Part shown: positions 19,065 through 35,590 of the stretch, piece by piece
Position numbering within the stretch: position 1 is the stretch's first letter
How the letters are laid out: every line of letters starts with the position of its first letter
Assembly: GCA_030831125.1 (NCBI GenBank)
Contig: JAURLQ010000009.1
Location: forward strand, 1-36,307
Length of the DNA stretch: 36,307 bases
Reading direction: 5' to 3'
Source of the DNA: Gammaproteobacteria bacterium
GTDB lineage: Bacteria > Pseudomonadota > Gammaproteobacteria > Pseudomonadales > Pseudohongiellaceae
Notes under the pieces: model-generated
What the model was told of the DNA's origin: nothing
Databases searched by the model: none
The model's input: the letters and a program-made list of their open reading frames with translations, nothing else
Translations under genes and position numbers: made by a program

Positions 19065-19140
19065 GGGTCGTTAGCTCAGTCGGTAGAGCAGTTGGCTTTT
19101 AACCAATTGGTCGAAGGTTCAAATCCTTCACGACCCACCA
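19065..19140 (+). tRNA. tRNA-Lys (anticodon TTT)
   Basis: A 76-nt cloverleaf with encoded CCA. The acceptor arm GGGTCGT pairs with ACGACCC. The D arm is GCTC...GAGC with the GG pair in the loop. The anticodon loop CTTTTAA gives anticodon TTT. The T arm is GAAGG/CCTTC with TTCAAAT. The anticodon stem has a G-T pair at 27-43. It follows queC in the same position as tRNA-Lys genes in Pseudomonas. TTGTAA (19020-19025) and TACCAT (19042-19047) may be a weak promoter just upstream. U34 is the known target of mnm5s2U modification. Confidence 0.98.
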
Positions 19141-32864: not shown

Positions 32865-33292
32865 ATCAGGTCCTGGTCATGAAGTGGCTAAATCAAGGTT
32901 TTATTCAGCATGCTGATGTCAACTTTTTCAGTTATGGGGCGTTAACAGCAACAGGCATGTCAGGCAAGGCTGCATAGTTTACATGAGTCCGGGCCAGGTG
33001 CATGCCAATGATCAAAACAGGTAGCTGGTCAGTTTGAATTATTCGATATCAGTGGTAATTGTGGAGTCCTCTGGTTGACACTTCGACACGCCGTAAACCC
33101 GGTTCAGCCATTCGGTATAGCCGAATGTCGCTATACCTCACGCAAAGCTTTGCTTTGCATACGTTCGGCTCTGCCCATGGGGGCTCGACTGCGGCTCCCT
33201 GCCGCAGACGGTCTCAGTTTCAACCAGAGTACTCCGCTGTCAAACCCTGCTGAATATTCAAACAGCCGAGCTACCACGACAGGAGATTCCGT
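32865..33292. other. 428-bp intergenic region between mnmC and the lipoprotein gene
   Basis: No credible protein gene. It holds a perfect 12-bp palindrome TCAGCATGCTGA at 32905-32916, flanked on the minus strand by a consensus -35 hexamer TTGACA (32922-32917) but without a matching -10, and the dense inverted-repeat cluster at 33109-33207. The end carries the ribosome site (AGGAG) of the downstream lipoprotein gene. Confidence 0.6.
33109..33207. repeat. Cluster of interlocking inverted repeats
   Basis: Within 99 bp there are several perfect stems: CATTCGG/CCGAATG (33109-33115 with 33121-33127), GGTATAG/CTATACC (33114-33120 with 33131-33137), AGCCGAA/TTCGGCT (33119-33125 with 33164-33170), GCAAAG/CTTTGC (33142-33147 with 33153-33158) and CTGCGGC/GCCGCAG (33189-33195 with 33201-33207). 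The first three share bases and exclude one another. It could be an extragenic palindromic repeat, a structured RNA or a regulatory leader. Confidence 0.6.
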
Positions 33293-33676
33293 ATGCGTGC
33301 CCCTATGACACTTACCATCGTTACTGCCATTGTGTTCGGACTTTGCGCTTGTGCAGGTGTGGAAAAACTGACCGGTCGTGAGCCGATTATCGATATGGCC
33401 GGTGTAGACCCTGAAGCATTGGAGCAGGATATGGCAGAATGTGAAGTCTATGCCGATCAGGTCGAAGTGGCACGGCAGACTGCAGCCGGCGCTGCCACGG
33501 GTGCGGTGGTTGGCGGTGTAGTGGGCGCTGTATTCGGCAATGGTGAAACTGCAGCACGGACTGCTGGCGTAGGTGCAACCACAGGAGGCGTTTCCGGCGC
33601 TGGCGGAGCACTGGCTGAACGTCGTATGGTTATCAGGAACTGCCTGGTTGGAAGAGGTTACAGAGTACTCAACTGA
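33293..33676 (+). CDS. Glycine-zipper lipoprotein
   Basis: Small envelope protein of 127 residues. The signal ends in a lipobox LCAC with lipidated Cys20. After a 50-residue acidic stretch comes a glycine-zipper region (about 62-103: AAGAATGAVVGGVVGAVFGNG... TTGGVSGAGGA), the pattern of SlyB/17-kDa-antigen/YMGG-type outer-membrane lipoproteins. It ends with RNCLVGRGYRVLN, where the second Cys (about 118) may pair with the Cys at about 48. AGGAG lies 8 nt before the ATG. Function is unknown; such proteins associate with the outer membrane. The following gene probably starts inside its 3' end. Confidence 0.8.
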   Translation: MRAPMTLTIVTAIVFGLCACAGVEKLTGREPIIDMAGVDPEALEQDMAECEVYADQVEVARQTAAGAATGAVVGGVVGAVFGNGETAARTAGVGATTGGVSGAGGALAERRMVIRNCLVGRGYRVLN

Positions 33677-34583
33677 TATTCCTGTTCAGCCCGTGAATAC
33701 GGGCTGGATCAATCCCTTTGGGGTTTCAGTTTCCATTCTCAGGGCCGATCTGGTCGATGCTGAAATCAGTGGCAACAAATATTTCAAACTGCTGCCCAAC
33801 CTGCAGGCAGCCAGATCAGGCGCCTACAGCACCCTGCTAAGTTTTGGCGGATACTGGTCTAACCATCTGCATGCTCTGGCTGCTGCAGGACACAGATTCG
33901 GCTTCAATACCGTGGGCATCATCAGGGGTGAAGAGCCAGCTTTTCTCAATCCCTGCCTGACTGAGGCAAGGGCCTGGGGCATGGAGCTGGAATTCGTTTC
34001 CCGTGCCCGATACCGCAGAAGAAATTATGCAGACTATCAGGAGTATCTCGCTGGCCGGTACAGTAACTGTATGGTCATTCCTGAAGGAGGGGCCAATCTG
34101 CATGGCATACAAGGCTGCCAGAAACTGGTTAGAGCCGGGCTCGAAGGTGACTTCAGTCATCTCTTGTTGGCTTGTGGTACAGGTACGACCCTCTGCGGAT
34201 TGATTACAGCTACCTCCCTGCCTGTAACGGGTATACAGGCCCTCAAGGGAAAGGGATATCTGCAAGCTGCAGCAGAAGATCTGCTTGCTCGACACAGGCT
34301 GACGGTGAGATCTGAAAAATGGGAAGTACTGGATGATTTTCACAGGGGTGGTTTTGCAAAAGCAGATAAGCAACTGCTCAATTTTATCGATGACTTCCAG
34401 GCCGAAACCGGTATTCCACTGGAACCTGTCTATTCGGGTAAACTTTTCATGGCCCTGCAAAGTCTGCTTGAATCCGGATATTACCCGGCAGGAAGCAGAG
34501 TACTGGTGATTCACGGTGGTGGGCTTCAGGGGCTAAGGGGCTGGGAACGCGGAAGTGATTATTCTGATTCTTCAGAAAGTTAA
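33648..34583 (+). CDS. PLP-dependent ACC-deaminase/D-cysteine desulfhydrase family enzyme
   Basis: Fold-type II PLP enzyme related to 1-aminocyclopropane-1-carboxylate deaminase and D-cysteine desulfhydrase. From the chosen start it has 311 residues. SGNKYFKL gives the Schiff-base lysine at Lys44. SFGGYWSNHLHALAAAG is the substrate/PLP-ring segment, and ACGTGTTLCGL binds the PLP phosphate. Substrate cannot be assigned; D-cysteine or other D-amino acids are as likely as ACC. The start is uncertain. I chose TTG 33648 because AGGAA sits 8 nt before it and the PVQPV segment typical of the N-terminus is kept; it overlaps the lipoprotein gene by 29 bp. A GTG at 33693 avoids the overlap but lacks a ribosome site. 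Confidence 0.8.
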   Translation: MEEVTEYSTDIPVQPVNTGWINPFGVSVSILRADLVDAEISGNKYFKLLPNLQAARSGAYSTLLSFGGYWSNHLHALAAAGHRFGFNTVGIIRGEEPAFLNPCLTEARAWGMELEFVSRARYRRRNYADYQEYLAGRYSNCMVIPEGGANLHGIQGCQKLVRAGLEGDFSHLLLACGTGTTLCGLITATSLPVTGIQALKGKGYLQAAAEDLLARHRLTVRSEKWEVLDDFHRGGFAKADKQLLNFIDDFQAETGIPLEPVYSGKLFMALQSLLESGYYPAGSRVLVIHGGGLQGLRGWERGSDYSDSSES

Positions 34584-34653
34584 ATACTTGAAAGACATGA
34601 AATTGCGCCTGCATTTCTGAAGATTCTGCATCCCCATAAGTACGATTGTCACA

Positions 34654-34662
34654 TGCTATACT
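34654..34662 (+). promoter_or_regulatory. Predicted extended -10 promoter for nadK
   Basis: TGCTATACT (TGn plus TATACT) lies 25 bp before the nadK ATG, in a 104-bp gap after the PLP-enzyme gene. There is no good -35, which an extended -10 does not strictly need. Confidence 0.45.
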
Positions 34663-34687
34663 GCGACTTTTCCCGCAGACTTGTGGC

Positions 34688-35590
34688 ATGCAACAGTTTT
34701 CGACCATAGGATTGATCAGCAGACGTGACAACCGGGATATCATAGATTCCCTGCACACACTTATTGCATTTCTGGAGCACAGACCGTCTACCCGTATTGT
34801 GCTTGATGATGCTGTTTCCGGTTTGCTTGGTGAACATCCTTACAAGGTATGCCCAAGGGAAAGCATGGGCGAAGTTTGTGAGCTTGTTATAGTGGTTGGT
34901 GGTGATGGCAGCATGCTGAAAGCTGCCATAGTGCTGGCCGAGCAGGATATTCCGGTGGTTGGTATCAACAGGGGGCGACTTGGCTTTCTGACTGACATAC
35001 TGCCTGATGATATTGAACAGAGCCTTGGCCAGATTCTCTCCGGCAAGTACAAGGTTGAATCACGTTTTCTGATGGATGCCAGCCTTTCTTCAAATGGCCA
35101 GGCCACCCTGATCGGCTCTGCGATGAATGATGTGGTGCTGCACCCCGGTATCGCAGCCCAGATGATCGAATTCGCGCTCTATATTGACGGGCAATTTGTA
35201 TATAACCAGGCATCAGATGGTTTGATTGTTGCAACCCCGACTGGTTCCACGGCCTACTCGATGTCGGCAGGCGGACCTATCATGCACCCCGACCTGGATG
35301 CACTGGTATTGGTGCCGATGTATCCCCACAGCCTGAGTTCGCGCCCTATAGTAGTAGACAGTCACAGGGAGATCACTATTGTGGTGGGAGACAGGCACAA
35401 CAGTGCCAGCCCCCAGGTGAGCTGTGATGGTTCTGTTGAATATACGACAGCACCCGGAGACATCATTACAATCAGACGCAAGGCACGGGAACTGAAACTG
35501 CTGCATCCCGAGGACTACGATTACTACGCCACATGCAGGAGCAAACTGGGATGGTCACATCGTCCCGGTGACAACCAGGGTGGAAGATGA
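34688..35590 (+). CDS. nadK: NAD kinase
   Basis: Phosphorylates NAD to NADP with ATP in the cytoplasm. The 300 residues (E. coli 292) carry GGDGS at 71-75, the NRGRLGFL loop, MNDVVLHPG, and the family's SDGLIVATPTGSTAYSMSAGGPI core; the end ...CRSKLGWSHRP is typical. I chose the ATG at 34688, which gives MQQFSTIGLISRRDN; an in-frame TTG at 34646 would lie upstream of the predicted promoter. The stop overlaps the glpG start as ATGA. Confidence 0.97.
   Translation: MQQFSTIGLISRRDNRDIIDSLHTLIAFLEHRPSTRIVLDDAVSGLLGEHPYKVCPRESMGEVCELVIVVGGDGSMLKAAIVLAEQDIPVVGINRGRLGFLTDILPDDIEQSLGQILSGKYKVESRFLMDASLSSNGQATLIGSAMNDVVLHPGIAAQMIEFALYIDGQFVYNQASDGLIVATPTGSTAYSMSAGGPIMHPDLDALVLVPMYPHSLSSRPIVVDSHREITIVVGDRHNSASPQVSCDGSVEYTTAPGDIITIRRKARELKLLHPEDYDYYATCRSKLGWSHRPGDNQGGR

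Follow-up and report, generated by a model that had tools for sequence, protein, structure and literature searches.

A MITE-like intergenic repeat of Gammaproteobacteria with a putative bivalent Csr/Rsm-type RNA site

A cluster of interlocking hairpins was found between mnmC and a lipoprotein gene in the window analysed here, a 36,307-nucleotide stretch of a gammaproteobacterial genome (contig JAURLQ010000009.1). On balance, the evidence makes it an even call that this cluster represents a MITE-like repeat, intergenic and present in many copies, whose cargo is a putative bivalent RNA site of the Csr/Rsm type. The element is a dispersed repeat with a conserved three-way-junction fold, it occurs in many genera of the class, and in the host genome a part of its copies is flanked by target duplications.

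The initial annotation placed five perfect stems within 33109–33207, and all five are present in that span: CATTCGG (33109–33115) with CCGAATG (33121–33127), GGTATAG (33114–33120) with CTATACC (33131–33137), AGCCGAA (33119–33125) with TTCGGCT (33164–33170), GCAAAGC (33142–33148) with GCTTTGC (33152–33158) around a TTT loop, and CTGCGGC (33189–33195) with GCCGCAG (33201–33207). The cluster holds 11 six-base stem seeds, compared with a contig mean of 1.27 per 99-bp window, and this number was reached by one of 1098 contig windows and by none of 500 letter shuffles. The limits given for the cluster were, however, too narrow. Longer nested inverted arms lie on both sides, pairing 33063–33087 with 33211–33235 (84% complementary) and 33020–33039 with 33256–33275 (85% complementary), and the five stems form the centre of a 256-bp nested palindrome at 33020–33275. 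Much of the gene-free flanks described earlier consists of arms of this same element. RNA folding of 33010–33285 (276 bases) gave −118.4 kcal/mol for the plus strand (z = −8.0) and −119.4 kcal/mol for the minus strand (z = −7.4), with no equal among 200 shuffles in either case. On one side, the minus strand carries mnmC (Pfam DAO and Methyltransf_30); on the other, the plus strand carries a glycine-zipper lipoprotein gene, whose match to Gly-zipper_YMGG (E = 0.0008) is under the cut-off of that family. Elsewhere in the window, a PALP-family (pyridoxal-phosphate enzyme) ORF overlaps the end of the lipoprotein gene and is followed by a NAD kinase gene (33573–35590), and a tRNA-Lys (TTT) gene occupies 19065–19140 on the plus strand.

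The suggestion that the cluster belongs to a dispersed palindromic repeat family proved correct. Searched at the nucleotide level with 33000–33300, the host genome (3.16 Mb, 179 contigs) returned 69 matching pieces, and a covariance model, R1, returned 101 matches at E ≤ 1. These were read as 97 places, the four omitted being three opposite-strand echoes and one weak match. A second model, R2, matched 80 times, which places the number of related copies in the host at about 80–97. Two findings that had been named as counting against the cluster, a single copy and stems without compensatory change, did not materialize, copies being many and such changes present; a further one, a lack of conservation in relatives, does apply to the insertion at this locus. 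Screening of the window against Rfam 15 at gathering thresholds matched a tRNA at 19065–19137 alone, and at E ≤ 10 the interval 32900–33400 gave seven weak matches, all under the family thresholds. Twenty loci with other copies gave a single match, sX15, in the flank of one of them (L306), so that no Rfam family was found for the element at or above gathering threshold in the window copy or these 20 loci. Five contigs of the host assembly (G000: C20, C59, C113, C117 and C144) start or end at or within copies, and the repeat therefore probably broke the assembly.

The unit of the family is a 98-position three-way junction, which reads on the window minus strand as P1 – GACC – X – U – P3 hairpin – X′ – GA – GCC – P2 hairpin – UUYAC – GGC – GU – GUC – P1′. 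Its core is strongly conserved and its stems are freely exchanged yet paired; one 20-bp stem differs in sequence among most copies with its pairing kept. The window copy is of the long form (256 bp, 33020–33275, minus strand), as judged from the nested arms, related copies and wobble pairs. Its terminal inverted repeats lie at 33020–33039 (left; GGTAGCTGGTCAGTTTGAAT, with GGTAGTGGTCTGGTTTGAAT as the family form) and at 33256–33275 (right). The outer left arm of P1 (33063–33087) ends in the core GAC, and the outer right arm (33211–33235) starts in the core GTC. Three core segments are read on the minus strand: GACACGCCGTAAACCC (minus strand GGGUUUACGGCGUGUC; 33085–33100), with the closing bases of P1, the junction and the 3′ arm of P2 with its UUYAC bulge; ATGGGGGCTC (minus strand GAGCCCCCAU; 33177–33186), with the junction and the 5′ arm of P2; and ACGGTC (minus strand GACCGU; 33208–33213), with the junction and closing bases of P1. 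The P3 hairpin (33189–33207) carries the minus-strand loop C[AGGGA]G, a predicted pentaloop of the Csr/Rsm type as described in PMC4005645.

Short copies do not have the 75-bp piece at 33101–33175, which is therefore an insertion in the P2 loop. This nested hairpin module, which takes the place of the P2 loop, contains four of the five stems first noted; it sits at the same position in several other copies, and a homologous module occurs in the P3 loop of further host copies. A search of the host genome with the module gave 20 matches. Four were read apart, three of them (L407–L409) being in broken or contig-end cores and the fourth (L410, weak, E = 0.0016) outside any such core. The hairpin loops look like insertion points. 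A multi-hairpin module of this kind was also noted at L008:136–226, and three loci from other genera (L120, L156 and L171) have extra hairpin sequence, of different sequence, within the P3 loop. A divergent host subfamily (L264–L267 and L270) has a core like GACACGCCGTAAATACATCCGTGTAGGCTTG and, on the folding strand, UACACGGAUGUA as P2.

Compensatory change was evident in every set of copies, P1 covarying in all four that were counted. Among 27 copies (set A1), two-sided changes affected 14 of 33 pairs. Set A3 comprised 92 copies from named genomes, one per distinct stem, collected by an exact 30-base pattern that fixes P2; standard pairs filled 91.3% of its paired cells compared with 61.2% after shuffling, and its covariation was 0.704 compared with 0.151 when shuffled and at most 0.162 when slid. 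Set A4 consisted of 40 copies from 40 genomes, one row per genome, chosen without a pattern filter among the listed hits of R2 (30 from the class and 10 from the phylum). Here 95.4% of cells were paired compared with 56.7% shuffled, and covariation reached 0.971 compared with 0.196, with P2 covarying too; as well-scoring hits to a model derived from A3, these rows may favour the same loop, though changes in the P2 stem passed. For the host-genome matches (A5; 78 matches in 76 distinct rows, two copies being doubled), covariation was 0.417 compared with 0.120 shuffled. A1 and A3 are sequence alignments, whereas alignment to the model makes A4 and A5 lean towards it.

Mismatches in the stems identified the folding strand. 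In a symmetric test, A·C and G·T mismatches of P1 on the window strand numbered 58 and 26 in 79 own copies (18 of the 97, with core or tail motif not recognized, being left out), and 71 and 18 in 67 named copies, loci with short flanks being left out. At fixed register on the minus strand, A3 had 52 G·U to 7 A·C (37 rows to 3, with 52 ties, p = 2 × 10−8) and A4 had 21 to 3 (15 rows to 1, with 24 ties, p = 5 × 10−4). This excess of G·U marks the minus strand, opposite to the lipoprotein gene, as the folding strand, whether it folds as RNA or as single-stranded DNA. The four orientations of the flanking genes showed no clear preference, at 24, 22, 21 and 20 of 87 named copies and 27, 24, 21 and 19 of 91 own copies (called with a simple ORF caller). 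Bias between replichores was considered as a cause of the asymmetry and discarded, since it is no more than weak, with 28 of 43 and 18 of 31 single copies among the matches listed (69 of 123 and 44 of 143) in two genomes whose records start at dnaA. A third genome (G204; 20 of 35 singles, 37 of 150 matches listed) was dropped because its record does not start there. With no clear orientation preference and so weak a replication-strand bias, mutational strand bias is an unlikely source of the wobble asymmetry.

These results bear on the two functional guesses made for the cluster. That of a small RNA found partial support, in the conserved fold with its compensatory changes and strand-specific wobble. 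That of a cis-acting leader or switch for the glycine-zipper lipoprotein did not hold and is highly improbable. The end of the element does lie just 17 bp upstream of the gene start, but the fold is on the wrong strand, all four gene orientations occur, two relatives of the same genus (G186 and G194) have the gene without the element upstream, and the genome has some 80–97 copies. If transcribed on its folding strand, the window copy would stand in the leader of mnmC instead. The strong folds and the intergenic position would suit transcription terminators or ERIC-like mRNA-stabilizing hairpins that work without a trans-acting partner. This is improbable, since copies are not clearly concentrated at gene 3′ ends, the two terminator-like sites found both lie outside 33020–33275, and the class-wide conservation of loops and junction would go unexplained.

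The host copies have two marks of a MITE. Many have inverted ends like GGTAGTG..CACTACC; with up to three mismatches this end pattern matched the host genome 52 times, compared with 3 for the reversed control. Terminal inverted repeats as in a MITE are thus present, and 29 of the 97 copies were taken as having both ends. Duplication-like flanks were found at 13 of these 29, with 0.84 expected from shuffled pairings, and none of 2000 shuffles had a mean as high; in the clear cases the target duplications are 8 bp long, so that the second mark of a MITE, target-site duplication, is also found in the host genome. One of the 29 rows was an unfair test, as the right end of the window copy had been mis-set; at its true ends, read by eye, no clear target duplication was seen. 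At the locus of the window copy, the same-genus genome G186 has the same divergent mnmC/lipoprotein pair without the element, separated by a gap of 140 bp compared with 428 bp here. The carrier measures about 184 bp in its short form and about 256 bp in its long form. Where 8-bp duplications are present, the element extends about 60 bp beyond the core in either direction, and since the insertion ends lie there, the core behaves as cargo in the host genome.

Spread across the class was wide. GTDB genomes yielded at least 114 stretches with the exact 30-base core, from Xanthomonas, Stenotrophomonas, Marinobacter, Microbulbifer, Oceanisphaera, Rheinheimera, Halopseudomonas and Shewanella among others. 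Klebsiella and Patescibacteria also appear as record titles, but these records are metagenome bins that may be mis-binned. R2, which was built from the 92 copies of A3, matched 69 of 369 Gammaproteobacteria genomes. Against the phylum it matched 30 of 398, every one in Gammaproteobacteria, although the class make-up of the other 368 is not given. With at most 150 candidates scored per genome, matches at E ≤ 0.001 numbered 123 in S. maltophilia SJTL3, 150 in X. hortorum jj2001, 143 in Xanthomonas sp. LMG 31884 and 18 in Rheinheimera sp. D18. Within the genus of the host, R2 counted 80 copies in the host itself and 59, 34, 27, 21, 21, 19, 13, 9, 5 and 0 in ten relatives. Spread by phages or plasmids was considered and set aside: the exact core had no match in IMG/VR, and a 141-base S. 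maltophilia copy had none among 50,697 phage records and one among 72,556 plasmids, in Marinobacter adhaerens HP15. Judged from this one copy, the element looks chromosomal.

Outside the host, the carrier seems to take other forms. At the stem ends of 100 copies from other genera, duplications numbered 2 with 2.3 expected, and the true ends there may lie elsewhere. Of the 123 matches in S. maltophilia (G203), 69 were listed; these included 13 close pairs, all head-to-head and 227–334 bp apart (one 1102 bp), and in two Xanthomonas genomes this held for one of one and four of seven close pairs among the matches listed. The target duplications in the host, with none at the stem ends of other genera, and the head-to-head composites of Xanthomonas and Stenotrophomonas suggest that the carrier differs between lineages, with the core in common. 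Some of the S. maltophilia pairs (L290–L296, L301 and L302) enclose GTAG-type repeats or GGGGTCAG..CTGACCCC palindromes. Xanthomonas copies (L297–L300 and L317–L336) fall into two subfamilies by their P2 stem, CCCA/TGGG and TACA/TGTA, which at several loci stand head-to-head via a shared spacer.

Such doublets, in Xanthomonas as in Stenotrophomonas, together with short hairpins and a strand-specific fold, would also be expected of a REP/BIME-type element moved as single-stranded DNA by a Y1 transposase (RAYT or IS200). Intergenic hairpins, inverted doublets and many Stenotrophomonas copies are likewise shared with the REP/BIME and RAYT-linked terminal repeats described in PMC3733652, and a Y1 gene is weakly associated with the element (50 of 69 genomes with it compared with 174 of 300, odds 1.9, p = 0.03). 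The unit here is, however, not a 20–40 bp hairpin tagged GTAG or CGTC at one end but the 98-position junction, and GTAG lies inside the host terminal repeats rather than tagging the core. The host genome, 99.9% complete and with 80–97 copies, gave no Y1 candidate, so that a Y1 transposase is not required now; nor was one found in 19 of the 69 element genomes, or in 8 of the 29 with at least eight reported matches. The elements make 8-bp duplications in the host genome, and the replichore bias is weak at most in the listed singles described above. IS200/IS605 elements are not known to make such duplications. Mobilization of the REP/BIME kind is thus a poor fit and improbable.

What the core may carry is suggested by its loops. 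In A4, the P2 loop on the minus strand reads A-N-G-G-A-X, with A, G, G and A fixed in 40 of 40 rows, N being G in 27, T in 11, C in 1 and A in 1, and X being T in 29, C in 8, G in 2 and A in 1. The loop always stands on a C-G pair (40/40), below which two pairs covary (UA 27, CG 12 and GC 1; AU 22 and CG 18), and its A and X positions could form no standard pair in 11 of 40 rows. Host copies without the nested module (A5) keep A.GGA in P2 in 71 of 75 rows and depart from it in 4, two copies being counted twice. The P3 loop has A(N)GGA in 36 of 40 rows of A4 and 71 of 78 of A5, with 4 and 7 departures. Among named copies, 60 of 67 have GGA in a P3 hairpin loop, of several sizes, under a parser that required GGA; 9 of these 60 are without the A before GGA, and 7 of the 67 were not parsed. 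The two GGA motifs are 20 nt apart in 33 rows of A4, 21 nt in 4 and 19 nt in 1, two of the 40 rows being without a value and 38 scored.

According to PMC4005645, CsrA/RsmE binds with high affinity to an ANGGAX hexaloop that sits immediately on a stem, and pentaloops with AGGGA or AAGGA are given there as binders too. PMC7652899 gives RUACARGGAUGU as the CsrA SELEX consensus, to which the commonest P2 loop kind, UACANGGAUGUA, is near, and states that one CsrA dimer bridges sites 10–63 nt apart, with an optimum above 18. By sequence, the family therefore has the attributes of a Csr/Rsm target, with two predicted A(N)GGAX stem loops whose spacing falls within the range of 10–63 nt. The window copy retains one such predicted loop, that of P3; the ANGGAX loop of P2 was lost because the nested module replaced it, and the copy may be degenerate. 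The match in loop, strand and spacing came to notice once the loop sequences were already known, which makes it a strong lead rather than a test. A csrA match was found in 64 of the 69 element-bearing genomes; of the five others, one (G218) is 98% complete and the rest 67–88%. The association (odds 2.7, p = 0.04) is weak, because 312 of all 369 genomes have csrA.

A purely selfish mobile element, whose mobilizing machinery recognizes the minus strand in its folded form (as single-stranded DNA or as RNA), is a less likely though plausible alternative. The GGA loops and the junction would then be contacts of that machinery and not of CsrA, and stems would stay paired since only well-folded copies propagate. 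Such an element would account for the conserved junction as well as the loops, and copy numbers swinging from 0 to 80 within one genus, 8-bp duplications with an empty site in G186, and the head-to-head arrangement of every close pair in S. maltophilia (13 of 13, with 69 of 123 matches listed) fit it. The lack of clear gene-orientation preference is expected of it too. It makes no prediction, however, of a fixed A, G, G and A with variable N and X; the ends with 8-bp duplications lie about 60 bp outside the core, which is thus not the transposon end in the host genome; and no partner enzyme was found among Y1 transposases, the kind searched for.

A bivalent Csr/Rsm-binding RNA would be the simplest cargo function to fit the folding strand, the spacing, and the pattern of constant and variable bases in the loops. 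Copies would be transcribed by read-through from neighbouring promoters, and the two loops of a transcribed copy would together engage a single CsrA/RsmA dimer. All copies together could then serve as a dispersed decoy for the regulator, and each might also act locally on the RNA that contains it. In the host genome the carrier, with its GGTAGTG..CACTACC ends, inserts with an 8-bp target duplication, presumably mobilized by a transposase in trans. As no orientation is preferred, selection, if any, would be on the element or the total copy number, not on single loci. Several observations weigh against a Csr function. The orientation counts do not suggest that copies are retained preferentially at sites with transcription of the folding strand; a junction conserved to this extent (GACC, GAGCC and UUYACGGCGUGUC) exceeds what CsrA binding needs; copies with the nested module, including that of the window, are without one loop; and P3 is a stable stem, very stable structure being a feature that may disfavour CsrA binding according to PMC7652899.

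A bolder form of the proposal would be a transposable sponge. Here a class-wide mobile family would spread bivalent Csr/Rsm sites at tens to more than 100 per genome, its copy number and transcription helping to set the level of free regulator, and the conserved junction would be a further site for a protein or ligand. We regard this as rather unlikely. CsrB/RsmZ-type sponge RNAs are single-locus small RNAs. The element differs from them in that its copies are dispersed, its conserved junction is elaborate and its closing stem is long and variable, and its binding is predicted. Shared with them are ANGGAX hairpin loops, more than one site per RNA and a spacing that a dimer can bridge (PMC7652899 and PMC4005645).

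Among known repeats, the bacterial MITEs with conserved RNA folds, ERIC, bcr1, NEMIS and YPAL, are comparable in being 70–300 bp long, non-coding, intergenic and multi-copy, with terminal inverted repeats and predicted RNA folds, as described in PMC3733652 and PMC2267715. To this list the element adds target duplications in the host genome. It differs in its three-way-junction core, which many families of one class have in common despite different stems and outer ends, in its strand-specific wobble and in its two CsrA-type loops. CsrA-type loops are not known to have been reported for ERIC, bcr1, NEMIS or YPAL. Six core 15- and 16-mers had no occurrence in the searchable text of PMC, and no paper listed by topic searches there was recognizable from its title or the start of its abstract as a prior description, though a figure, a supplement or a subscription journal may contain one. 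In PMC2267715, which treats 92 stem-loop families, neither Xanthomonas nor Xylella occurs in the main text.

If CsrA/RsmA does bind these RNAs, mobile repeats, which usually go unnoticed, would make up a large and variable share of the target pool of this regulator in Xanthomonas, Stenotrophomonas, Marinobacter, Microbulbifer and other genera. Even without CsrA binding, this is a widespread structured element, without an Rfam match or a description found in print, whose fast-changing 20-bp stem stays near-perfectly paired.
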